This document shows positions 1 through 54,269 of a stretch of 64,000 nucleotides of DNA, one piece after another. How positions within the stretch are numbered: the stretch's first letter is position 1; the number at the start of each line of letters is the position of its first letter. The position numbers were made by a program, and so were the translations under genes. Below the pieces are notes generated by a model, which was not told where the DNA came from, did no database searches, and saw only the letters and a list, made by a program, of their open reading frames with translations. This DNA is from Paramacrobiotus metropolitanus (Eukaryota > Tardigrada > Eutardigrada > Parachela > Macrobiotidae): assembly GCF_019649055.1 (NCBI RefSeq), contig NW_026570332.1, positions 1-64,000 of the forward strand, given 5' to 3'.

Positions 1-639
1 AATTGCCCGGACCGGCCGACCCAACGCCTCAACTTGGCACTGGAACGTCGGAGGTCGGAACGCAGGAATGCCCGACCTACGCAGCACAAACAATGCGACT
101 GCGCCGCCCGCCGCAGAAAGCGACGCAGGACGGACCGGCCACGGAGGCTGGACCGGATTGCCGGTGAGAAGAAACTCAACCGAGCAGCCCAGACAAAGGG
201 CCAAGACGCGGAGGACCGGGACGCCGATTCACGCAAAGGGGCAGCAGAAACTACCCTACTGTATCATCCGCACGTACAACGGATAGATACGCTGCAACAA
301 TGGCAGCTATCGATCTGACCAGAAGAACCGGGAGGATTCGAGAGAATGGGAACATTCCTTGGAAGTACAGGTACCCGAGTCTACTCTCGGCCCAGGAGGC
401 GGACCTCTTCCAACAACAGCAGAAGCCAGCTAGAACGGTAGCTGGATCTCAGACGTTCGTCAGCCTCGATTATGTGGCGAGTAGGACCGACAGAAGTTTC
501 CATGGAGGAACGGATAGCCGATCAAGTGCGACGGGCAAGCCATAACAAACCGACGGACAGGTCACGAACCGACCAGGAAGTGAGCAAGTGGTCAGCCCAG
601 GCAGAACCCACACAGGTTTCCAGTCTCATTGATTCCCGT

Positions 640-975
640 CACACCGACTGTACGGGAAGTCACCTTCGAAAAAAGGACTCACAAGAAACCAGACGGTCAG
701 AGCCTGGACACACCAGTCCAGATCGGACCGACGCCCACTATGGCGATGCTCGACACAGGAGCTGAGACTTCGCTGATCGAACAACGATTTGCGAACAAAT
801 GACCTGCCGATGCAACCTCTCGGCCATTACACTCGGATACTTGGCGTAGGCGGACAAGTCGCCTTCACCGTAACTCACTGTTGCACCGCACCGGTAACGC
901 TGCAGGGGTTTACGAGCCATCACACTTTCCACGTTCAACCGAGCAACGCGGATATCCCAGTGTTACTTGGATAGC
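640..975 (+). pseudogene. Retropepsin-like protease domain, broken
   Basis: A reading frame through 690-795 contains MAMLDTGAETSLIE. The DTGA catalytic motif with a following alcohol-rich segment is typical of retroviral-type aspartic proteases that process Gag-Pol. The frame hits a stop at about 797. The rest of the domain, including a flap-like GVGGQV and a terminal DIPVLLG, continues in another frame and stops at about 974. The domain is therefore split by a frameshift. It lies about 2.2 kb upstream of the reverse transcriptase, further than usual. No Gag-type zinc knuckle was found upstream of it. Confidence 0.7.
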
Positions 976-3266
976 ATACCTCCATTCCAGTTCACCTTCG
1001 TGCTAACGCCCATTCCTAACCCGGAACGATCTGGAGGAATGACGGTAGTGCAGTCTATCCCGATACCAGAGGCATCGGGCACGGTGAAAGTGAAGCGAGG
1101 ATAAACCGGCAGCCAGCCGACGGAATCTCCGCCCAACATCTGTCGTGACTGCCGGGATACTAACCGGACTCTAGTCGAAATTACGCTGCACAACGCCATT
1201 GAGGCGTACGAAGACCGGATACGTACCGGAAGACTACGTCCGCAAAGCGGATACTGAAGACGGTAGTCAAGTCTATCCCGATACCAGAGGCATCCGCCAC
1301 GGAAGCGGATGCCCTCTTAAAGATTCAACAGAAGTACCGAACCTGGTTTACGGGAGTTCAACACTTTCTCGACCGACGGACGTTGGAAATGTTGGCCACT
1401 CTGCCACAGAACGGGCAGTAACTACGGACCAAATACAGGCAGCACAACGGATGCGAACCTGTAGCCCTCGCCGAGACATCGACGATGAGGCCTGGGAATG
1501 GGAAGACAGACGGTCCCAATTCTCCGGCGGTACATGGAATACGGACTTCCAGTACCACGCCCCTGGAGATACCCTGCCAAGAACTAGGCGGAGCACTCTT
1601 CAGTTACATGCGACAAGTACAGTTGTACGGAGAATCGTACAACCCTGCGTTTTGGAAACGGTACGGCGAGGACACCTCAATAACAAGGAAGATCCCCGAC
1701 CGCTACCTCCAACCATGGAACTTCACCGAAGGAAGTGAGTTCGTTAGCAGCCCACCTAAACCGGCTGAAACCACAAATCGGCGAGGCTGACCGACCTGAC
1801 CGTTGCATAATCTGCAAGACAACATTGATGGAGTCATCCGGACAATAAGACTCATCATGACCTGACTTGGATAGACGGCAGACCGTCGTCACCGGCCCTC
1901 CGCAACCTGAACGGAAGGTAAACCAAGCCGGAAGACCAAGCCGGGAGTCAACCAATGGCTGAGCAACATAAGCTCACAGCCATCCGACCTGGAGAAACAG
2001 GAAGGAAAGGTCGACCGACCAACAACCAGACGGCCGACCAGGTGCACCGACCACAGTCGGAGAAGGTAGCGTGCCTGACCACAGAAGTCGGACATGGCAA
2101 CATGACGCTAACCTGAAAAGAGCAAAACTCCGAGGTACAACTCGGATGGCTCGGACGTACAAAGTTCGAGCGATTCACCGAACTCCGATAACCAACCTTC
2201 GGAAGATTCCGAGAGGATGATGAGAATTCGACCTGTCAGTACGAAACTGCAGGTCGGATAAACCGCGGAATGACGACTCGAATGACTCGTCGAGGAGGAT
2301 GAAGAACCGACCTATGACGTCCGGCTAACAAAAGCATTGCGGTCCCTCATCCATACTGAATTCATGGTCGACCCTCCCCCCGGAACAAACCGGACAGGAA
2401 AAGCCAGTCGTGCTGAACAACAAGCGGAACTCGAACAACTTCAAATCTTGGGAATTTGGAGGAGGCCAACCGGAGAACACGACCTCCAACCTCCAACCAT
2501 AGCAGTCCAGCAGTTGTCAACGGACAACCGCCTCGGTTAACTTGCTGACCAGCAGAAGTCGGGCAACCGCGCCCACGAAGGTCCGGATTGCAAAAGTTAA
2601 CTCGATTACGGAGCTGAACCTGGTCAACAAACATCCACAAGTTTACCATTTGGCATTGGACCCGTTTATTGACTCTAAGCCGCTAGACCGACAAGTCGTC
2701 TTTAACAGCGAGCGGTCTCTCTTCCACCATACTCAACGTGTTCTATCAAGGTACGGACGGCCAAACCAATGGACCCGATGAGACCCATCTACTTCTACAC
2801 TTTACGGCGGAAGCACCGCCTATCCGACCAATAGAAGCTAAGATTGAGATCCGACCTCAGATAGACACGGCCTGGATAAACATCCAGAACATGACCTCAA
2901 CCAAGGATACTGAAGAAGGCATAAAACTTGGCCATATGCAATACAGCGACATGTTCGAACCGGACATCGACAACCACGTCGAATGGGAACTTCCACTTGG
3001 GATTGCCAAGACTTGGCCACCCAAGCCGGAACCAAAGCCATCGCCGAAATTCGAAATTTTCGAGGCGACAGGAGTTAGAAGCTCAACGGAAGTGAAACTC
3101 CTACGGGCGATAACCCAAGTACGTCGTAATGGATGTTGCAGTAGCCACCGGACAGAAACTCATGTACCTTGGTGGATCCGACCCCAACGAGACGGAGTCG
3201 AAATGATGGATGGCGTAACAAACATGATGGGAGACGATTTACCATCATGGTAGCCAACCACTCACC

Positions 3267-4198
3267 GTGAGTCACCTTACGAAAGGGTGCCCCATGGGTC
3301 GAGTCGAACCGTTCCAAATGACGGACGACCAGAGAATCGAAGAAGCGAGAATACGCTCAGCTCAAGTGGAGGAAGAAGACGCGGAATCCCAGGAGGAGCG
3401 ACGAAGAATCATCGACTCCATGAACTTCGGTAAGAACTTGACCGACGAGCAACTTGCCCAACTTAAGGCTGTTGCCTGGGAATACCGGACGTCTTCCCGA
3501 CCTCGAAGAAACCATACGGAGATGTCAAGGTGTAACACACCATCGACGTCCAAGGTGCACAACCGATCAAGATGAACCCCACCAGAACAAGCTGGAAAGG
3601 ACGAGGAATTCATCCAGAAACATGTGCAGGAGATGCTCGACCAGGGTCATCGAACCTTCATCGGCTGCTTGAGTTTCCCCGTCGTCTTAGCCGCGAAACG
3701 GAACGGAGACGGTACGGTTGGAACTCGTTTCTGCATCAACTACATAAAGTTGAATGCAGTAACAAAAAAATAATTACCCGTTACCGAACCCGGACGAGCT
3801 ACTGGACCAGTGCGCCGGAATGGAGTACTACGGTAAAGTAGACTGTCAGTCCTTTTGGCAAATTCCATGGATGAAAACTCAAGGACTACACAACCTTCGT
3901 AACACCGGAGGAATGTGGAGAATTCAACCGTATGCCATTTGGAGTCTGCAACGGACCAGCGACCTTCAGATGCATATGGATAATCACGGCATCAGCCAAG
4001 AAAGGCGTGTTTGCATACATTGACGATATCATCTTCTTCGGTAAAACTTTCGAAGATTTCGTCGAGGCTTTCCGAGCGACCCTCGAATGCCTCAGAGATA
4101 CCGGATTCACCATTAAACCCTCCAAATGTGAGGTCGGAACGGATAAAATGCTGTTCCTCGGACACGTCCTTAGCAAGACGGAGTCAAACCGACGATGA
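3267..4198 (+). pseudogene. Reverse transcriptase domain, frameshifted
   Basis: Pieces in alternating frames match Ty3/gypsy reverse transcriptase in order. A VVLAAK...TRFCINYIKLNAVT stretch lies at about 3,680-3,765, YYGKVDCQSFWQIP at about 3,827-3,868, MPFGVCNGPATF at 3,932-3,967, and the catalytic YIDDIIFF box at about 4,016-4,040. The invariant double aspartate is intact, but several frameshifts and a stop separate the palm segments, so the enzyme is dead in this copy. The preceding frame (3,267-3,575) carries a Glu-rich segment with LTDEQLAQL, a typical linker just before the RT. Confidence 0.85.
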
Positions 4199-4840
4199 AA
4201 AAGTAGCAGCCATAGCTCAACATGATTACCCGAGGACGGAACGCCAACTGAGGTCGTTCCTGGGATTGGCTAACTACTACCGTAAGTTCATCCGAGGATA
4301 CGCCCAGAAGACATCAAAGATGTACGAGCTCCTACGGAAGGACCAAAACATCAAAAAGGATTGGACGGACGCCCACACGGCTGAGTTCAACGAGATTAAG
4401 AAGGCGTTAACAGAAGCGCCTGTACTGGCGAAGTTCGACCCGACGAAAGAGACCGTCATAGAATGTGACGCAAGCGGAGCCGGACTTGGCGCGGTGCTAT
4501 CCCAGGACGGACATCCGATCGCCTATGCCAGCCGAGTCTTACACGGACCTGAACTCAACTACGGAGTCACAGAATGGGAATGTTTGGCCGTGGTATGGGC
4601 AGTGCAAAAATTTAAGCACTACATTGACCATGGACCTTTCACCGTACGAACGGATCACTGAACATTGCAGAATCTGCTCAGATGCGAGTCAAACCGACCT
4701 GGCATCAACCCTCGACTAACACGATGGGCACTGGCTCTACAAGGACGGGACATAACCATCAAATACAAGCCAGGAGTATTCTGCGACAATGCGGACGCCT
4801 TGTCGAGGTGGCCACTCGAACGGAGTGACGACAAAGATCC
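4199..4840 (+). pseudogene. RNase H domain and connection of Pol
   Basis: The frame at 4,199-4,661 encodes the connection region (RSFLGLANYYRKFI) followed by an RNase H fold of the Ty3/gypsy type. It shows ECDASGAGLGAVLSQDG, then AYASRVL and ELNYGVTEWECLAVVWA, with the expected Asp and Glu catalytic positions, and ends with TVRTDH. A frameshift or stop at about 4,660 separates it from the terminal segment LTRWALALQ...CDNADALSRWP (4,708-4,815), which is the hallmark end of the domain (NxxADALSR). This is the best preserved part of the element. Confidence 0.87.
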
Positions 4841-5199
4841 ACACGAGGAGTTGGATCAGGAGCCTAACTTTGAAGACTTTAAGGACGAAATTAAAGTCTG
4901 CACCATACGGACCCTACGACGTCTGAAGGATAACGCATATAAGAAGAAGAAAAGGGATAAGGAAGAACCACCTGAAATCCCATTTCCATCACCTCTTCCT
5001 GGGTGTAACGTTATTTCGGACTGGGATGACCTAAGTACCACAGAAGTACGGGTCGTCAACGTACCAGCCCCGAAGACGCCGGAACCTCAACATAACGGAC
5101 GTCCATCCGGACCGCAAATACAGCGGAAGAGTCGGACAGGTCAGCCCACGGCGAACACTCGTACCGCCCGTGTCAACTAACGCGGAATTGCGAAAGCAC

Positions 5200-5930
5200 A
5201 GCTGCGAGACCCGCACCTGAGGAAAATCATCGATGAACTGGAGAACCTGGATAAACTCGACCACAAGTCGAAGTACATCGAGCATTACCAAATGGCTCAG
5301 GGACTCCTATATCGATTGAAGACGATTAACGACAAGCTGGAACGGTGCTTTGTCGTACCCCTCTTCATGCGAACGAACATTATACGCTCGCTACACGATG
5401 GGAAAACCGGAAACCACTTCGGACGCGATAAGACAGTAGAAGCATTGAAGTTGCGCTACTATTGGGAACGGATGTCAACCGACGTGTTTGAATACATTCG
5501 GAAATGCCGACAGTGCATTTTGGCCAACAAGGTCCGACGTCCCCCACCGGGTAAACTCAGAAGATGGAAGTTGGTGGCTTGGTATCGCATCTACGCGGAC
5601 TTCAAGGGACCTTTACCTCGAACGCAGACGAAAGGATACCAGTACATCGCAGTTGTAACCGACCAGCTGACAAAAGTTCACCATTGCCCAACCAAAACAA
5701 ACACCGCGAGAATTCGAAAAGTTCTTTCGTAGAAGATGTCCTGCTGAAGTACGGAATGCCGACCTTCATCCACTCGGACCGAGGGACGCACTTCGGCGAA
5801 AACATTTGCCAAGGTGAGGATCTTCGGCATCCAACACCACTTGGAACGGCCTATCACCCGGAAGGTCAAGGACAAGTCGAACGGCAAATGCAGACGATAT
5901 GGGACGGAATACGTAGTTCTGCAACATAAA
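5200..5930 (+). pseudogene. Integrase: zinc-binding and catalytic core, broken
   Basis: The frame at 5,292-5,732 contains the HHCC zinc-binding module (SLHDGKTGNHFGRDKT then CRQCILANK) and the start of the core (YADFKGPLPRTQTKGYQYIAVVTDQLTK). The core continues in the next frame (5,564-5,929) with FIHSDRGTHFGENICQ and TAYHPEGQGQVERQM, giving the DDE-type Asp, Asp and Glu positions. The frame change near 5,700 breaks the enzyme. Integrases of this family insert retroelement cDNA into chromosomes. Match to the Ty3/gypsy family is clear from the motif order. Confidence 0.85.
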
Positions 5931-6199
5931 GGACGGACACCGTTGGCACAGAGCCTTACCATACGTCGTCTGCGGGATGAACAGAGCAGTCCATTACTGA
6001 CCAAATTTTCACCTTACCATATGCTGTATGGTCGAGAAATGACCATGCCACAGGACTTAGTGGCCGGGACGAACGCACCGGAACAGTATACGGATAGGAA
6101 CATTACATCAGGCGGATAAAGAACGACTTCAAATGGCCCATGAAATCGCGCATCAACATTGATGAAGCCTTCCAGACAGGAGCGCCGAACACAATAAGA

Positions 6200-7142
6200 A
6201 GAAGTCGTCACCGACCTTCAAACCACGGGATAAGGTAACGGTGGAGTTCCCAACTAAGGACTTCGCCAGGATGGAACGATACGATGGAGAGTGGACGGTC
6301 ATAAGTTATGTTGGCCCGAACAACCTACTACTCGAAGTGAGGACGGACGTGAAGACACCGTAGCCGTCGACCGAGTGAAACACTTTCCAGCCGACGCACG
6401 TCGACCAGTAACTCGGTCATCTCGACAAAAGCCGGATAACGACCTGGGAACCGACCCCACAGAAGGGAAGGCAACCAGTAAGTCGACCAAAAAGCCTGAA
6501 GTAACCATCGAGCAATCGGAGAAATCGGACTTGACCGACCAACCTGAAGTAACGGTTAAGAAAAGAGGTCGAGGTCGACCTCGGAAGAAACCGCCGATGG
6601 ACTTCGAGACACCAGCCTTGCAGGAACTGCAGAAGCAAAATGTGATACCAGACGAACCCGCTGAACCGACCTTGGAGAAACCTAAGGAGTCGGACAACAA
6701 GTCCGAAGAACCGGTTCAGCCATCCAACCAACCTGCGGAAGAACCCAAGAAGTCGGTAACTAAGCCGGCCAGGAAGAAGAAGTCGGATAAGACGACCGAT
6801 CAGGTGGCACCGACCACAGAAGTCGAAGTAGCCGACCCGGCAGTCTCACCGACGAAGCCAAAACGGACTTATAAGAAAAGGACGGTCAAACTAACCGACC
6901 AAGCGGCACCGACCACGGAAGTCGAAGTAGCCGACCAGCAGGTCGAACCGCCCAAGCCTAAACGGAAATACGTCAAGAAACCGAAGCTGACAGCACAACA
7001 AGTGCTGGAAGAAACTGAAGTCGCAGAAGACGAAGCCCATAAAGAAATTTTCGAAAGAATTTCGGAAGGACTGGCAGACTCGGAGAAACCGGTCAAAACT
7101 GCAACACCAAGAAACCTCAAGCAGCAGTCACGACAGAAGTAG
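6200..7142 (+). pseudogene. Integrase C-terminal tail with AT-hook and Lys/Pro repeats
   Basis: At 6,215-6,350 the reading frames give KVTVEFPTKDF and WTVISYVGPNNLLLEVR, resembling the small beta-barrel/GPY-F segment after Ty3/gypsy integrase cores. The open frame 6,291-7,142 (283 residues) then runs through a very basic, low-complexity tail. It has a classic AT-hook, KKRGRGRPRKKP, at about 6,556-6,594, and two copies of an APTTEVEVAD-containing repeat separated by KPKRTYKKR and KPKRKYVKK. AT-hooks bind the minor groove of AT-rich DNA, so this tail may have served in target choice. No chromodomain was seen. The repeats share DNA words (GACCACAGAAGTCGA) with the hairpin array downstream. Confidence 0.65.
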
Positions 7143-7726
7143 TCCCAACTTGAGACACCTAGGAGCGGACATTACGCTCAGAAAAAAAAGAAACTGCGAG
7201 GTCGAGAACCGACCCGGCGGAGAACCAGCCTGCCTGAGAAACGGCACCGTCGAGAAACGACGTGGACTTTCGGAATGGATACTTTATTCTTTTGCAGATT
7301 CCAGACAGCAGACGTTAACCACGAACAAGCCAGAAATGCCAACCACATAAGTTGGCCGGATTCTTTGGTCGGACCCGGAAACGTGTGGTCAAACCTGGGT
7401 ATTTCGGTTCTTTCACCGTACCGGTACGTCCCCCAAGGAATCCCCTGGAACGAACTGGGCAACCGACCTCAGCTCCCCAGCATGGCATCAGCAGATCGAC
7501 AACCACATCTGCTTCACCGGAGCCAACAGACGCCCGGCAAGCTAACAACGCATATCGTGAACCACGTTCTGCTACCAAAGAAAATTACTCCGGCCAACCG
7601 ACTCCGGAGCGCAGACCGAGAGGATGACGCTAAAATTGTACGGAAAACCGGACTCCGAGCGTTCCCTACAATGTTCGCCTGGCACCCACCGACGGAACCA
7701 GGGTAACCGACCAGTAACTTTCGTCA

Positions 7727-9228
7727 CCGCAGACAGCGGTATCTTCTTCGGTTCGGAATGTCACATGGTTCGGCATTGACCACAGAAGTCAAAACCGACC
7801 TGCTACGACATGGCATAAGTGACACACCCAAGGCAGGAGCGAAGAACCGGATTCCGCCCAGAAGCCCAATCGACGCACATCGTTAACCGCGAATAACTAC
7901 CTCAGCCGACCACAGAAGTCGACTACTCCCGAGGTAGCCACCTAAAAAGGAGAATGGCGCAGACCGTGCCATTAAACCACGATTAACTACCTCAGTTGAC
8001 CACGGAAGTCAACCATTTTCCGAGGTAGAGAACCTTGGACCTCTTTATTACGACTCGGATAACTTAGCCGGCCACAGAAGTCGGTGAAGTTTCAACTTTA
8101 CATCCGAACGACAAGTCGTACGAAAGGATATACCCAACACAGACCGTGTTGGATAACCACGATCCACTACCTCAGTTGACAACGGAAGTCGACTATTTCC
8201 GAGGTAGCTGCCCAGGAAACTTGACCACCGCAGGCCGCGGATCCAACCACGGTCTCCTACTTCACTGCCAACCGAGCAGACCAGCCAACCGAAGCTGACC
8301 GGCCTATGGATCAGATCGTGAGCACATTTGTTACCATAGTCGACCACGGAAGTCGACTTGCCCCATGGTAGAACTGCCCGGCCTGCCAACATGGCACATC
8401 GTCGACCACGTCTAGCTACCTTAACCGACCACAGAAGTCGGTTATAACGGTAGTCAACCAAAACGGACGCAACAGGATGGCGCGAGCCGTGCCATGGAAC
8501 CATGATCTACTACCTCGGTCGACAACGGGAGTCGACCATTTCCGAGGTAGCTGTTCAGAAGCCTTAATCGCGATTCGGATAACTTAACCGACCACAGAAG
8601 TCGCAGAAAGTTTCAACTCAACATCCGAAGTACAAGTCGTAAATGTTTGTTGAAGCACCCATGGTCGACTCCGGAACCGGAGGGTCAACCAAGCGGACCG
8701 CAATAAACACAGCTCGCTACCTTAATCGACCACGGAAGTCGATCTGAATAAGGGTAGTCGATTAGTGAAACGGACCGCAAGCTCGCAGATCATTAACTTC
8801 GACCTGCCATGGAAAACCTGGGCAACAGACGCCATGGCAACCACCGAACTCAACGGAACTTGGACCCGTCTAGAGGCAAAGTCCAATGTCACATGGCTCA
8901 GCGGGATAACCGACCAACAGCGACTCGGATCCGACCCAGAGTATGCGAGAGGTACGAACCAGACCACCACTCTTGAGAACTTTCCGGGGCTCGGACGAAT
9001 GCCAAGAGGCCTGAAACGACCTCTCAATGGATGGAGTCAACCATGATGAAGAATCACCGACCTCGGGTTGGACAACATTTTACCCGACCTCAGGTCGGAT
9101 AAAGCGAAGCCAACCAGACAACAAGTCTGGATATTACCCGGAATCACTCGGATCCTAACAGAGCGGATCGTGTCAACCATCACCTGCTACCTAAGTCGAC
9201 CACAGAAGTCAATTTTACCAACGGTAGC
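7727..9228 (+). repeat. Tandem array of nested, covarying hairpins
   Basis: At least eight copies of a two-level inverted repeat were read by eye. The outer arms are CTACCTC...GAGGTAG (7,897-7,937; 7,987-8,028; 8,167-8,207; 8,510-8,550) or variants such as TACCAT...ATGGTA (8,332-8,369) and CTACC...GGTAG (8,416-8,453; 8,717-8,757; 9,187-9,227). Inside each is a second hairpin with a CACAGAA-type loop and arms CCGAC/GTCGG, TCGAC/GTCGA or TTGAC/GTCAA. A separate hairpin precedes several of them, with loop AGACC or similar: ACCGC/GCGGT (7,727), AATGGCGC/GTGCCATT (7,953-7,973), CCAACAC/GTGTTGG (8,134-8,152), ATGGCGC/GTGCCAT (8,477-8,495). There is no open reading frame. The arms change together between copies, which suggests pairing matters. 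Confidence 0.8.
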
Positions 9229-11150
9229 CGACCTAAGAAATGTTGACACACGACCGACCGACGTCGACCTGATGGAAGCATATGGAACCAAAGAGATTAC
9301 CTGGTGAAAAGGGACCACATAAGCCCCTTGACGCCGTAATCAACCAGCAGTGCATGCTGAATGGCCAAAAGACGTCATGGAACCGCAAACTTGAAGGAAC
9401 TCGGATCCGTCCAGAGGCAAAGTCACGGACCCGACCCAGGGCATGATAGAGGCACGAACTCGACCATCGCTCCTTACAACTTTGCGGAGCCCGGATGGAC
9501 GCCCAGAGGCTTAAACCGACCTCCTGACAGACGGAACCGACCTCGATGAAGATTAACCGACCTCGGGTTGGATAACATTATACCCGACCCCAGGTCGGAT
9601 AAAGTGAAGTCACCGACAGCAGGTCGGTTATGAGGAGGATTCAACAAAAGCGGACTTGTATGGCTCCACTTTGAGCTCGCATACCGCAACTTACCTCGGT
9701 TGAACATGGAATCTGGGAATCACCGACCTCAGGTCGGCCATGGGGAATAACCGACAACAGGTCGGTGGATGGACACACCATGGAAGATTTTCACGGAAAA
9801 CGATTTCCGGACGGATAGATTCGACCTAAACGACCTTGTGTGGTTCCACTTGGACCTGCAATTATGGAATCATCGACCTCAGGTCGGATAACATTGTAAC
9901 CGACCTCAGGTCGGACATGTGCGGATAACCGACAACAGGTCGGTGGACGGAAGATTCTAACGGAAAACGACTTCCAAACGGATGAATTCGACCAGAACGA
10001 ACTTGTATGGTCCCACTCGGACCTACAAAACTGTAACTCGCCTTGGTCGACTAGGAACACAGGATAACCGACCTCGGGTCGGATAACATTATACCCGACC
10101 TCAGGTCGGATACAGCGAAGTAACTGACAACAGGTCGGTTACGCCGAAGATTTAATCGAACGGGACTTGTATGGCTCCACTTTGAGCCTGCATACCGTTA
10201 AATACCTCGGTTGAACACGGTATCTTGGAATTACCGACCTCAGGTCGGATAACATTGTAACCGACCTCAGGTCGGACACGTGAAGCAACCGACAACAGGT
10301 CGGTGGATGGAGTCAGATCGTACCCGACCTCGAGTCGGACATGTGAAGTTACCGACAACAGGTCGGTAGATGGAGAGACTATTGAAGATGTCTACGGAAA
10401 ACGACTTTCGGACGGATGAAATCGACCTGAGACGCACGATAACTGACCTCAGGTCGGATAACATTGGAACCGACCTCGGGTCAGACGGACCGACAACAGT
10501 TCGACAACAGCATGAATGTGGATGAACCGACAACAGGTCGGTAGATGGATACCCTTTAGAAGAACTCCACGGAAAACGATTTCCGAACGGATTATTTTGA
10601 CCAGAACGACCTCGCATGGTCCCACTTGGACCTGCAAGACTGTAACTCGTCTTGGTCGACCTGGAATATGGAATAACCGACCTCAGGTCGGATAACATTA
10701 TCACCGACCTCAGGTTGGATAACCGGTTTAACCGACCACAGAAGTCGGCTAATAACACCGGATCATTGAACCGCGTGGAACACCAGCGGGTTACCCGAAT
10801 TACGACCTTTGAGCGGACCATCACCGACGTCACGTGGTAACCGACCTCAGGTCGCACAACATTACCACCGACCTCAGGTTGGATAACATTATATCCGACC
10901 TCAGGTCGGACATCAGAATCACCGAGAACAAGTCTGTGGAAGATGACAAAATTGAAGATTAGAATTAGAAACGACCTCGAAATGGACGAATTCGACTTAA
11001 CTGGACTTGTTTGGCCCCACATGGGCCTAAATAACACAAGTCACCGAGGTCGACCATGGAGGCGCGTTATCACCGACCTCAGGTCGGATAACATTGTGAC
11101 CGACCTCAGGTCGGATATCCATCCTAACCGACAACAGGTCGGATGACAAC
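9060..11150 (+). repeat. CCGACCTCAGGTCGG palindrome array in degenerate tandem repeats
   Basis: The 15-bp palindrome CCGACCTCAGGTCGG or a near variant occurs about 20 times (for example 9,082; 9,725; 9,899; 10,233; 10,261; 10,678; 11,072; 11,100). It is often paired as two copies about 28 bp apart joined by ATAACATTGTAA. It alternates with the related hairpin CCGACAACAGGTCGG (about eight copies). Both sit in longer degenerate repeats containing GGAAAACGATTTCC followed by a TGGTCCCACTTGGACCTGCAA-like hairpin at about 9,800, 9,963, 10,571 and 10,968. Spacing between copies is irregular (roughly 170-600 bp). No coding potential is evident. It continues the preceding hairpin array inside the retroelement. 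Confidence 0.85.
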
Positions 11151-11639
11151 AGTAAATCACTATTGGATGGAAGGAGCAACAAATTCCGACCGGACCTTCG
11201 AGCCAGTTCGCATCGGATGAAGTCATAACCAGGCTCGTGGTAGCAGATTTAACGGTTATAACCGACCACATTCTATCGGCATTACCACTTGGCGACCACA
11301 GAAGTCGTATGACACAAGTACGGTTTTGCCCGACCTGAACTTTGGAATTCGGAACTTAGCCGGATTCTCTGACCGCTGGTTAACTTACCAGTAGGTCGAC
11401 CTTGGTCAACCGACCTCGGTCCAATTCCCCCACATAGAGAGGATGCTTCGGCATTCGCAACAGCGACAGTGCCTCTCTCTCCGGAACGGACGGATACGAG
11501 TCGGACGTAAATGTAAGCCTTGCTTACCCGACCTCGGACGAATTTACCGGTTACGTTGGGTAACCCGGGAACCGACGCCCCGGACCTGACACACCGGATC
11601 GCATTTAGATAGGAGACCCCGTGGAAACTCAAGACCCGT

Positions 11640-12560
11640 GGACGTCTTCCTAGTCGGAATAAGCCCCCGGACAGATCTCTTTCTAGTATTTTTATACATT
11701 TTCTAACAAACGAAATTGTATTTTACTTAGAATCTCTAACCAGATCTGTTTTGCATTACGTTTTGCTCACTGGAATTGTGATTAAACTTTATTACTTTTC
11801 TGTTTCGCGCTGTTTAACCGTCATTACATTTTTCTTTTACGCTCTCCGAAGCCAACAGAAGCAAGATGCCGGCCAACAGAAGCATTACCGGTCCAACGAA
11901 ACGCCCGAGCGGCTTCCAGATTTGCGGCCGTGAGTTGCTTGCCTCTCATGGATCTGGAAGTTAAGGATGGGACGGTCAACAGGACACCGGACTCCCACTG
12001 CAAGAGGACGCGTACCGGCGACCCCACATGGGTCGACCGGAGAGGTGCGATGCTGGCGCGGTACTGAGTCGGAGCATCCTCGCAGGAGCTCGGATTCCCG
12101 CCCAGAGGCATGTTAGAGGCACGACAGCCTGCGTGGTAGATACGCCACTTTGCGTATGCGTACCAACGCACACATGCTGATTCGCCCTCTCTCGTACGTA
12201 CGTGAGTGGCTGCACTGCACTCTCCGCCTAGCGGATCTACCGCGGGCGCACTCACTGAGCATACTTGCTCTCGTTCCTCTCACTCGCAGTATGACTCAGC
12301 GCCTATACGCTCGCGTTGGATACGAGCCCAGTCTGCGCATCACATTCCACATGTCTTGACGCACGACGTTGCCGCCAGCGCTCTTTCTCTCTCTACATTT
12401 GATTACGCGCTAGAACTCGCTCGCAGCAACATGACTTGCTGATTTTCATGCCAGACATTGGCGTCTTTGTTCTTTCTCCCGCAATCACGCGGTATTTTGC
12501 TCCCCTTTATTTGTCAATAAAGATCACTGTGAGCTCCCTGCGCTTGCCTGTTATACTACA
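11640..12560 (+). mobile_element. Probable 3' LTR of the retroelement
   Basis: Sequence character changes near 11,640 from CCGAC-rich to mixed. The block contains an AT-rich start, repeated CCAACAGAAGCA words near 11,850-11,890, and a poly(A) signal AATAAA at 12,516-12,521 followed about 40 bp later by a CA-ending terminus (TTATACTACA at about 12,551-12,560). Ordinary AT-rich DNA follows. An LTR is expected here from element layout, but its partner lies outside the window, so neither its length nor its TG start can be verified. Confidence 0.45.
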
Positions 12561-12715: not shown

Positions 12716-15700
12716 AAACAGTAACGGGGAACGAGATTCCCAATTACTCCAGCCGCACACGAACCTGTTAACATAAAATTGGGGCTCATTAATATCACTC
12801 ACGGCGTACGGGAAAATCGAATCTTCGTGTGATATGCTGCCTGATACAATAGCACAGAATTATGTCATGCACAGTAACATGTTATACTCTTCTGGTTGTA
12901 GCAAGTACAGAGCTTTAAACTTTAAACACATGCGAAAATCAGTTAACCAACCAGAATGAACTCCGAAGCGCAGATGTATGTTTTTCTTCTGCATTCCCAG
13001 GGTCTCGAAATTCGCTAACAAAGACTTCGCCATATAGCTGATTTCGACGGCATGCGTTGAGCCATTTCGGACCGGAAGTCCACTGGCGACCTATATTAAG
13101 CAGCCACAATTAAAATTCACAGCAACAGTCATAAAACTCTTTGTCCGGATCCTATTTGACCATTTTGTTCACAATCGGCATTCTGATGTCGATCTTTATC
13201 GTTAATAGTCGTATACGAGTACGAAAGTACTTGTACTGTATTTACGCCGCTACTAAACCTAAACAGGAAGCCAATGCAGAAATCTGGATTACGTGATAAT
13301 TTTTTTTCACAATGTAAATTATCAGTAAGTACTTTTTAATGTATGTATAAATATAATCTATATTCGTTGCATGACGGGTAAATGCGAACAGTTTATATAT
13401 GGGGGCTATCGTTTAACTGCAAAATCAGCATTTTCCAACAAATATAATTATTGTCTGCGGTAAATTGACAACAAGATCTGCGGTTTGCACCCACATCAAA
13501 CAAATCCATATGAACATTTGAATCGTTTTGTACTAAACAATCGACACAGGGTGCGTCGTCCAGGTTCAGTAAAGGCCAATTGCAATTGAAACTTCACTGT
13601 ATTTCTGTGAAATTATTCCGCTATAGGGGCATTTCATCGTCGACCCGTATTCACAATGCTTCGCAAATAATTTTACTCTTACCATATATGTGTCTCCAAT
13701 GGTTTCCACTTTGTAAACATCAAACCTTTGAATTTCCGTATCAAAAGCAACATAGATGGTGTTTAAAGTGGCAATGACCGAACCGATGTCTGCTGTAGCC
13801 ACCCATCCAACAAAGCCCGGCATATCTGAGAAGGATATTGTAACGCAGTCGAAATATTCAGGATTTATCGCGACTTTGTTTCGCAAGCTTTCGACAATGG
13901 ATCTGCAAACGGTGCATATGCACTATGTACAATATACAGATACGAGGAGCGAATTATACAAAGAACGATCTTTAAACTTAAGACTTAATTAGAATTTTAC
14001 CGGGGTAGCATTTCCGCCAGTAAACGGTCGGCTTTCGCTTGTTCGGCTTTCAGCTCGGCTGTCCTCGCGCTAACCGATTCTTCCAAAGTTGCCGCATATG
14101 CGGTCACTTTGAGGAGGATGGATTCGATGACATTTTTGCTCTGTCGTCCGACCATTCTGTGTAAGGCTATACGAATCTGGGATATATTTTCGTACCTTGT
14201 AGTATCAAACGAATCGACAAAGCGTTTAATCGACATATCCGGGTTTGTGTTATTAATCTCCGTATGCCGCTGCAAGTCGTTGTTAGATTGTCTCTCTTGT
14301 GGGCTTGGAAAGAAGATGGTTGATACGATTTTTTTCAGAACTGTTATGTCCAGCAGCTGCGTGGCTGAAATGGCCGAAGCATTCCGTAAAGGTAATGCCT
14401 TATTATTTCTGCGGTCATTTGTTTTATTCCCTGTGTGTTGCGTCAATGACGGGTTGAGTGTTGTCTTCATTTGTTGAAATCCTAACGATCCGATGGCAAC
14501 AGTAAAGTGCGAATCCACGAGACACTTCTTTAATGCTAAAAAACCGTGGTACTTGATAGGAGAGGTGTGAATGTATAGTAAACCCTACAAACAAGAGAAC
14601 ATTAATTAGCGTGTACCGGCGCCATAACATTATACAGAGTATATGTGTGAATTTGCTCTAGGGCTCTAGATCTTTGTGTACAGATATATAGTAGGAGCAG
14701 TAGGAAAAACGCTTAAATTAACAAGAACGAAATAAGAAGAATAGGACTATACCTCAATAATGTCTGATATTAGGAACGTTTTAAACTCCCAGTCAAAATG
14801 CATATCCATTGTTGTTAGCAAACGGTCCAAAGAACCTCTCTGATGCGAAGAAGAAATGGCCCAAGCCATATGACCTTTGCCGCTAATGCACAACCCAATA
14901 AATCGGGAAACATTCCTGTGGTCAATTCGAGCCAGCTACAATGCAACCGTTAATACACCTTGTCAACACTGTTATTTTGGACTGGCCACCACGTTATATC
15001 GATGACTCACTATACTCTTATATATATATATATATATCTGCATATTTAAAAAGGTGGCTTTATATGTCAACAATTTTACAAATTGCCCATCTTTTTGGTA
15101 ATTGTTGCTTTTTTATATAGCTTTTTTGTGCCTGAATCCTAATCACGATGAAGTCTAAAATGCACCAACTGAACTGTTTCAGTTTTATAGGTTGGCTAAG
15201 TCGTAGTAAGGAGTGCATATATACCGCTGGAAAGAGCCACTGATCGTGTAAGACCGCTACCGGTGCTTCCAAATTGTCCCACTGCATCCTTTTTGCCCAC
15301 ACACTTGTTCCGCGAAATGTGGCAGAACTGGAAAAATTGTCATCGTTGTGTGTCGGAGGAGGGACTGTTTGTTGAGCTGAATCAAAAACTAGTTGTTCGT
15401 CCGTAAGCAACCATTGTTGGATGACCTTGCTTTTGGCGTGTCTGAACAGAAAAAATGAGATAGCCGAAGCAAGCCTTTTTCAGCATAAACTGGAGATTAC
15501 CATGCATATACGGTTTTTTAAAATTTTCCGCTCCTTCACAACTTTCTGCGTTACAATAGAACTGTATAGTAGAGTGTACACCCTATATTTTTACTTACCT
15601 TCTAATCATCACACCAACGAAAGCAAGGATGACAAAAACAGCGGCAATCGAGGACCCGATTGGCGTCCAGTAATCTGATGATAGAAAAAGAATATGTTAA

Positions 15701-53239: not shown

Positions 53240-54065
53240 AGTTTAAAATCGTAAGCCTAACCGGGTTATAATTGACGAACCCAATGGGGAAATGTGTGTT
53301 CGACCGTAAATTTGGACCCAGTGTAAACGCTTAGACCGGGTCGGGTGGTGACATTTTGGGGAACCGTAACGTAAATAATAACCGGGTCATTTTTAACGAA
53401 CCCGCCGTAATAATATACGTGGGGTCCGGGAATTTGGACCCGGTCCGGATTTTTTTAGCGCCTCAGTTGGGCCGGTTTTGAGGAACCGTAACGTAAATTA
53501 TAACCCGGTCATTCTTGACGAACCCGCCGTAATAATATACGGAGGGTATGGAAATTTGGACCCGGTCCGATTTTTTTAGCGGCCCCGGGTGGAGCAGTTT
53601 TGGGGAACCGTAACGTAAATAATAACCCGGTCATTATTGACGAACCCGCCGTAGTAATATACGGGTGGTCCGGAAATTTCGACCCGGTCCGGATTTTTTT
53701 AGCGCCCCCGGGTGGAGCAGTTTTGGGGAACCGTAACGTAAATTATAACCCGGTCATTATTGACGAACCCGCCGTACTAATACACGGGAGGTCCGGAAAT
53801 TTGGACCCGGTCCGAATTTTTTTAGCGCACCCGGGTGGAGCAGTTTTGAGGAACCGTGACGTAAATCATAACCGGGTCATTATTGACGAAGTTGCCGTAG
53901 TAATATACGGGAGGATCGGAAATTTGGACTTGGTCCGAATTTGTTTAGGTTAGGAACAGTTTTGGGGAACCGCAACGTTAAATGTAACTAGGTCAGTATT
54001 GACGAACCCAGTAATATACGGGTGGTCGTGAAATTTATACCCGGGAATGATTTTTTTGTGGCCCC
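53240..54065. repeat. 122/123-bp tandem repeat array (about 7 units)
   Basis: The word GAACCGTAACGTAAAT recurs at 53,361, 53,483, 53,605, 53,728, 53,851 and, degenerate, 53,967, with a more diverged unit from about 53,240. Each unit continues with AACCCGGTCATTATTGACGAA, a GCCGTA-ATAATATACG segment, AATTTGGACCCGGTCCG and a TTTTTTTAGCG...CCCGGGTGGAGCAGTTTTG end. Three central units of 123 bp are an exact codon multiple and stay open on the + strand (53,600-53,953), giving a 41-residue repeat. Without splice or start context this is more likely satellite than gene. Confidence 0.85.
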
Positions 54066-54269
54066 GGGTGGTTGGCGTTTTGGTAACCGACGTTTTGGGA
54101 AATACTTATTCATTTTTCAGAGTTCCGCCGTACAATTGTATTGGTAGCCCGATTTATGAACCCTGTCCGATCATTTGGCCCGGTGTTGGTGGTGGAGTTT
54201 TTATGTTTGCAACTCCCGTAACAGGTCACTTTTGTCGTGCAAGTTTTTGGAACCATTTCTAAATGCTAT

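Follow-up and report, generated by a model that had tools for sequence, protein, structure and literature searches.

The window, by which we mean the whole stretch of 64,000 nucleotides analysed here, forms the beginning of a 449 kb contig from the tardigrade Paramacrobiotus metropolitanus, whose genome totals 169.8 Mb. A CAHS protein query matches about a dozen loci in this genome, the best with 65-71% identity, as fits a eutardigrade; COX1 gave no match, and a 5.8S match did not narrow down the host. It opens with a Ty3/gypsy element that is truncated at the contig start and in which the following parts were found.

1-12555, +, Ty3/gypsy element, truncated at the contig start (Pfam RT_RNaseH and Integrase_H2C2; homology to the C27 copy over bases 2-12555)
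3984-4661, +, pol fragment, RNase H domain (PF17919, 6.3e-35; PF17917, 3e-27)
5181-5732, +, pol fragment, integrase zinc-binding domain (PF17921, 1.4e-18)
6258-7142, +, pol C-terminal tail with two APTTEVEVAD repeats carrying the inner hairpin (6810-6826 and 6909-6925)
12111-12555, +, 3' LTR of ~445 bp, matching the 5' LTR of the C27 copy (C27:1041166-1041612)

The element belongs with Ty3/gypsy (Metaviridae) by the order of its pol domains, RNase H and then integrase H2C2 in the Pfam matches of the window, and by its 3' LTR, which forms its 3' end and is 99% identical to the 5' LTR of the C27 copy; the 3' LTR region of that copy matches the window at 95% over a longer stretch. Protease- and RT-like stretches could be recognised by eye upstream in the open pol of the locus L037. 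In the window the pol frame is broken, and the 5 kb between the end of pol at 7142 and the LTR contain no long sense ORF after 7706, which is also true of other copies. The C27 copy spans 19.4 kb (C27:1041166-1060520) and has open frames: its ORF1 is 1003 codons long and shows weak coiled-coil matches, its pol has 2240 codons, and smaller ORFs that overlap are present besides. Thus, the description of the element as dead in the original prediction applies to the window copy alone: the family is not dead, and open, young copies exist. Five overlapping open frames in differing phases are seen at C27:1042738-1055010, suggesting frameshifting, introns or a small number of mutations. On its sense strand the window copy shows a strong A-over-T skew (0.1-0.5 over 1-11300) that is absent from the adjoining host DNA. 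Elsewhere in the window, a 123 bp unit stands in tandem in about six copies (53342-54071), and an open frame on the minus strand (13997-14584) resembles by eye the pre-catalytic region of a receptor guanylate cyclase (ARTAELKAEQAKADRLLAEMLPR), with no Pfam match.

The unit that concerns us is a short hairpin nested within a longer one. The inner hairpin has the consensus NNGAC-CACRGAA-GTCNN, or a close variant of it, and the outer stem, at the sites measured, begins 0-8 bases upstream of the inner hairpin and closes about 6-18 bases downstream. The hairpins located in the window are these.

2067-2110, +, double hairpin, outer stem TAGCGT/ACGCTA (GGCA.TGT/ACATGCC in the C27 counterpart)
7767-7800, +, double hairpin, outer GGT(T)CGG/CCGACC, inner TTGAC/GTCAA
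7897-7937, +, double hairpin, outer CTACCTC/GAGGTAG
7953-7973, +, AGACC-loop hairpin AATGGCGC/GTGCCATT (helix 1 of the covariation analysis)
7987-8028, +, double hairpin, outer CTACCTC/GAGGTAG, inner TTGAC/GTCAA
8055-8107, +, double hairpin, outer TCGGAT/ATCCGA; the 3' arm holds a further small hairpin, AAGTT/AACTT (by eye)
8134-8152, +, AGACC-loop hairpin CCAACAC/GTGTTGG
8167-8207, +, double hairpin, outer CTACCTC/GAGGTAG
8331-8371, +, double hairpin, outer TTACCAT/ATGGTAG
8415-8454, +, double hairpin, outer GCTACC/GGTAGT
8477-8495, +, GAGCC-loop variant of the AGACC hairpin, ATGGCGC/GTGCCAT
8510-8550, +, double hairpin, outer CTACCTCGG/CCGAGGTAG
8574-8629, +, double hairpin, outer TTCGGAT/ATCCGAA
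8716-8758, +, double hairpin, outer GCTACCTT/AGGGTAGT
9083-11148, +, hairpin array of the form CCGAC-NNCAG-GTCGG (CCGACCTCAGGTCGG, CCGACAACAGGTCGG), in which the stems are largely constant
9186-9228, +, double hairpin, outer GCTACC/GGTAGC
9301-9347, +, decayed double hairpin, outer CTGGT/ACCAG (in other copies CTTGTGG/CCACAAG or CCTGGTT/AATCAGG)
10723-10761, +, double hairpin, outer CCGGT/ACCGG
11287-11319, +, double hairpin, outer ACTTG/CAAGT (ACCTG/CAGGT in L033 and L055)

The double-hairpin array is therefore real, as had been predicted, and between 7727 and 9228 it numbers eleven cores instead of the eight nested copies first counted (at 7776, 7906, 7996, 8068, 8176, 8340, 8425, 8519, 8588, 8726 and 9196; the one at 8068 carries a single substitution, GGC for GAC). 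The predicted inner arms CCGAC/GTCGG, TCGAC/GTCGA and TTGAC/GTCAA are all present, and the predicted outer arms were found as CTACCTC/GAGGTAG, TTACCAT/ATGGTAG and GCTACC/GGTAGC. The separate AGACC-loop family was recovered as well, with three members in this interval including the GAGCC variant, and hairpins of this type precede several of the double hairpins. The placement of the motif in the 3' region proved too narrow: further inner cores lie at 2075, 6810, 6909, 10732 and 11292, and ORF1 of the C27 copy holds three inner hairpins.

In the 169.8 Mb genome the core word GACCACRGAAGTC is present 422 times and its reversed control 9 times. Twenty short places with a core, mostly solitary, were examined, and the majority are copies of the pol-tail or ORF1 motif in other elements. 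The number of modules and the length of the array differ widely among copies of the element, tandem expansion being plain, so that the part between pol and the 3' LTR holds hypervariable tandem repeats of the kind that characterises the 3' UTR region of Ogre/Tat-like elements. Between 9229 and 11300 there are 20 hairpins versus 2.4 in shuffled sequence. The leader between the 5' LTR and ORF1 at L042:613-1738 contains 8 perfect hairpins, with 1.4 in shuffles. In the inner cores of L001-L042 (GACNAC-NNNN-GTC) the loop usually ends in AGAA (230) or GGAA (68); rare endings such as GCAA, GTAA and GAAA are GNRA-like, and AC/GT may form a helix that closes them.

Pairing was assessed in 39 modules taken from genomic copies, each made of an AGACC hairpin and a double hairpin. 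In these, 93.2% of stem cells are paired; the figure falls to 83.8% in shuffled columns and to 28-44% if one side is shifted along the other. There are 88 changes affecting both sides where 28.1 are expected; none of 500 column shuffles, which ignore kinship, reached the observed pairing or the observed number of both-sides changes. Among the paired changes, the AGACC stem shows GC/AU/CG and AU/GC/UA/CG, the inner stem UA/CG and GC/AU, and the outer stem CG/UA. Because the shuffles ignore kinship, a tree-preserving null was run, in which the inferred substitutions were re-dealt on a FastTree tree within each stem. Against it the AGACC hairpin stands out clearly (0/500, with 7 same-branch double compensations; 0-0.5% under other reconstructions), and so does the inner stem (3/500, with 3 same-branch double compensations; likewise 0-0.5% under other reconstructions, and about 1% or less overall). 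The outer stem within the CTACC module family is borderline (26/500, or 0.5-7.5% depending on the reconstruction). An R-scape-like all-pairs G-test against a similar null yielded one column pair only at E<0.05, since independent changes are few; most orthologous sites in young copies vary very little.

The outer stem is better judged across sites. When the flanks of 41 non-redundant sites were swapped, 0 of 20,000 permutations paired as well as the true combinations, and the stems themselves are unrelated in sequence: TAGCGT/ACGCTA, CTACCTC/GAGGTAG, TTCGGAT/ATCCGAA, CTTGTGG/CCACAAG, GCTACC/GGTAGC, CCGGT/ACCGG, ACTTG/CAAGT and CCTGGTTA/TAATCAGG, the last of which occupies, in different copies, the same position as the CTTGTGG form. 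At one orthologous position most copies have CTTGTGG/CCACAAG and L018 has CCTGGTT/AATCAGG. Support for the outer stem is thus weaker inside one module family and strong across unrelated sites. RNAalifold does not choose the outer stem and draws the loop otherwise, with AC[RGAA]GT as the tip, so that the loop can be read as RNA in more than one way. The word AGACC alone was rejected as a loop marker for the whole element, its flank permutation being weak (z 1.4) because most AGACC words lie outside hairpins.

The original prediction had held that both stems covary and that the AGACC hairpins covary too, and had proposed a covariation test and RNAalifold on aligned copies. The AGACC hairpins and the inner stem bear this out beyond both shuffles and the tree-preserving null, while the outer stem does so strongly across sites and at the borderline within its module family. 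As to the proposed tests, the excess over shuffles was obtained, the R-scape-like test gave its single pair, and RNAalifold favoured another drawing. The interpretation given in the prediction is thus supported in part, and constraint on structure is well supported.

The prediction had left open whether past selection acted on RNA or on a DNA cruciform. Paired changes are in excess, and RNA is favoured by the strand purity of the motif and by the codon choice in ORF1. The collected loci contain 261 cores, every one of them sense and none antisense; where a locus lacks pol its strand was assigned from the motif, and RT matches and arrays agree where they occur in one element. Within ORF1 and pol the units are written as PTxxVG or PTTEVE (PTTEVG-type repeats) in biased codons: CCG accounts for 16/17 inside hairpin units vs 91/244 elsewhere, ACC for 15/17 vs 85/266 and GTC for 14/16 vs 70/190, counts that are inflated by tandem duplication of the repeats. 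An outer pair in ORF1 is GTCC/GGAC in one form and ATCC/GGAT in the other, which changes V..T to I..I. At L042:2400-2990 the codons of the PTxxVG repeats of ORF1 spell CCGACC...GGTCGG hairpins, RNA structure apparently shaping the protein repeat. The element folds more stably than its shuffles, with a mean z of -1.3 to -1.8 on the sense strand, compared to -0.3 in host DNA. The excess of G-U over A-C in inner stems (50:14) was considered as proof of RNA and set aside; it is not above a spectrum-preserving null and is suggestive only.

Related subfamilies of the same genome, grouped by RT only at ~94%, 88% and 84% identity, lack the core of the NNGAC-CACRGAA-GTCNN family downstream of pol in the pieces examined, and two of them show loop words of their own. 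The words were picked after the data were seen, and the correction of their p values covers the 1024 possible words alone, not every choice made in the analysis. In the 94% group ACAGA loops sit on 13 distinct stems where 1.0 is expected (corrected p 1.5e-8), and in the 88% group CAATA loops sit on 13 distinct stems where 0.84 is expected (corrected p 1.7e-9); applied to the family of the window, this count finds 9 stems with ACAGA, 1.2 being expected (corrected 0.004). When the flanks of all word occurrences were permuted, with no prior selection of hairpins, ACAGA (in both groups) and CAATA each gave 0/20,000. Antisense loop words had no effect in the flank permutation, and the loop-word count in host DNA produced no enriched word. 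CAACC was rejected as the word of the 84% group, with a corrected value of 0.16 and 64/20,000 flank permutations before counting nine offsets.

Several features of these relatives deserve mention. One element of the 88% group has an array, several kb in length, of about 17 CAATA hairpins (L070:2845-4653 and L078:87-3195), nearly all outside ORFs, whose stems differ and close mostly on CC/GG; it is a second, independent hairpin array. In the 94% group, L067, L068 and L076 carry ACAGA-loop hairpins on unrelated stems, partly within ORFs (for example GAGGAT-aacagaa-ATCCTC and CTCATC-acaga-GATGAG). In L069, L071 and L073 pol is followed by open frames, the shortest of 1276 codons and the longest of at least 1590, which by eye look rich in proline and coiled-coil-like; a Pfam search of the post-pol ORFs of the related subfamilies gave no match.

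We consider it very probable that these hairpins reflect selection on RNA structure. When a loop stays constant while its stems change freely, the pattern is that of recognition through the loop, and a protein probably reads it; the combined explanation, RNA structure together with a loop read by a protein, is the one we prefer, at somewhat better than even confidence. The hairpins would act in the sense transcript and would be maintained by selection on both folding and loop identity. The sequences show that a short stem closes a fixed loop, CACRGAA in the family of the window, while the letters of the stem drift as matched pairs, and that the outer stem, free in sequence, presents the inner hairpin. 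The same unit is reused along the RNA in ORF1, in the pol linkers and in the 3' region, and related subfamilies follow this pattern with loop words of their own. Its many copies may form a multivalent docking array for the protein. The most likely candidate for the reader would be the element's own Gag or ORF1 protein, which would select full-length RNA of the right subfamily, the selected RNA then being condensed into particles; the length of the array shifts between copies, probably via strand transfer in reverse transcription. That the reader is Gag, acting in packaging, is a tentative assignment. Equally conjectural, though possible, is its extension, whereby, inside a single genome, each subfamily of one Ty3/gypsy clade tags its RNA with its own loop word, read by its own Gag or ORF1 protein, in a self/non-self packaging code evolving with the splitting of subfamilies; that the words of this code are CACRGAA/ACAGA, CAATA and possibly others, repeated on freely drifting stems, is likewise a speculative proposal. 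In Ty1, cis signals lie near both ends, and the element still transposes after losing as much as 5 kb of internal sequence (PMC4974528), which speaks against internal packaging sites as a general feature.

The reader may instead be a host RNA-binding protein that docks on the hairpins for export, translation, stability or localisation. The structural evidence fits such a protein as well as it fits Gag, and many of the sites are in the 3' noncoding region, a common place of host-factor action. A single host factor, however, would be expected to keep one loop word, and the words vary between subfamilies of one genome; as these subfamilies live in the same host, their differing words make an element-encoded reader likelier than a host one, and we regard host docking as unlikely, though it comes next after Gag.

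The hairpins could also have a mutational origin, quasi-palindrome correction or template switching in reverse transcription copying one arm to the other and duplications spreading the units. The variable module number and plain tandem expansion described above speak for a contribution of this kind, but one-step arm copying would not hold one loop word over 13 unrelated stems, nor would it swap both arms at one position, bias the codons of ORF1 or put all cores in one orientation. It is improbable as the explanation.

Loop-to-loop kissing or other intermolecular pairing, serving genome dimerisation or compaction, has precedents, since dimerisation by loop pairing is known in retroviruses and Ty1 (PMC5454406). 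Upon inspection, however, CACAGAA, ACAGA, CAATA and AGACC are neither self-complementary nor complementary to each other, which leaves this scenario with a small chance. A constraint at the protein level, with the PTTEVG repeats of ORF1 and pol having made the sequence and the 3' region being decayed coding sequence, would find a parallel in the long ORFs downstream of pol in related subfamilies; the 3' sites lie in no long ORF even when other copies are included, the pairing of the outer stems lies outside the repeat and there is a bias at synonymous positions, all of which makes it very unlikely. The idea of mobile DNA palindromes inserting into the retroelement, like the double-hairpin elements of mitochondria, is hardly credible: the units are small, palindromic, dispersed and numerous, but the 261 cores share one orientation where insertion would occur in either, the outer arms are inverted and not direct repeats, and the solitary matches examined are mostly remnants of the same pol region in other elements.

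Returning to RNA structure with a protein-read loop, one of the closest known parallels is found in the dispersed packaging signals of MS2 and other viruses, where many stem-loops of the genomic RNA share a common loop motif while the rest varies (PMC6281560). Multiple stem-loops with a common loop motif are likewise found here in genomic RNA, as predicted from sequence alone; unlike those systems, we deal with an LTR retrotransposon whose long 3' noncoding region carries the hairpins in dense arrays, in which an outer stem is added and the loop words are subfamily-specific. The alphavirus packaging signal also has repeated stem-loops with a common short word within coding sequence (4-6 stem-loops with GGG; PMC8233893), but its copies are few and in one place, no nested outer stem is reported, and there is no relation by descent. 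The plant Ogre/Tat Ty3/gypsy elements (PMC7004042) are alike in their great length and in hypervariable 3' repeats that expand and contract. The likeness rests on this 3' repeat region, as the Ogre/Tat clade is a plant one and the host here is an animal; no report of structured constant-loop repeats in them was found, whereas here the units are structured and occur in ORFs also. The mitochondrial double-hairpin elements (Paquin 2000, as cited in PMC5910586) share the name and the two hairpins per short repeat, but they are mobile mtDNA palindromes, while the present units are nuclear, occur only in the sense orientation and keep to one retroelement clade. Finally, the packaging and dimerisation structures of Ty3 and Ty1 are similar in being structured LTR-retrotransposon RNAs packaged in a Gag-dependent way, and differ in that no repeated loop-coded hairpin array is described in the available parts of these sources (PMC4974528, PMC11381356, PMC5454406). 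The original prediction knew of no element family with this layout, and this still stands: the open-access literature yielded Ty1/Ty3 RNA structure, plant 3' UTR repeats and mtDNA double hairpins and no loop-coded array, and positions 1-12000 of the window matched no Rfam 15 family above the gathering threshold, two minus-strand matches being at chance level.

To our knowledge, the way in which LTR retrotransposons choose their own RNA among that of relatives sharing a cell is poorly known outside yeast. Constant-loop hairpins with different words in different subfamilies would provide natural RNA-protein recognition pairs that follow a testable rule. They would also show RNA structure shaping protein repeats, as in the PTTEVG repeats of ORF1.
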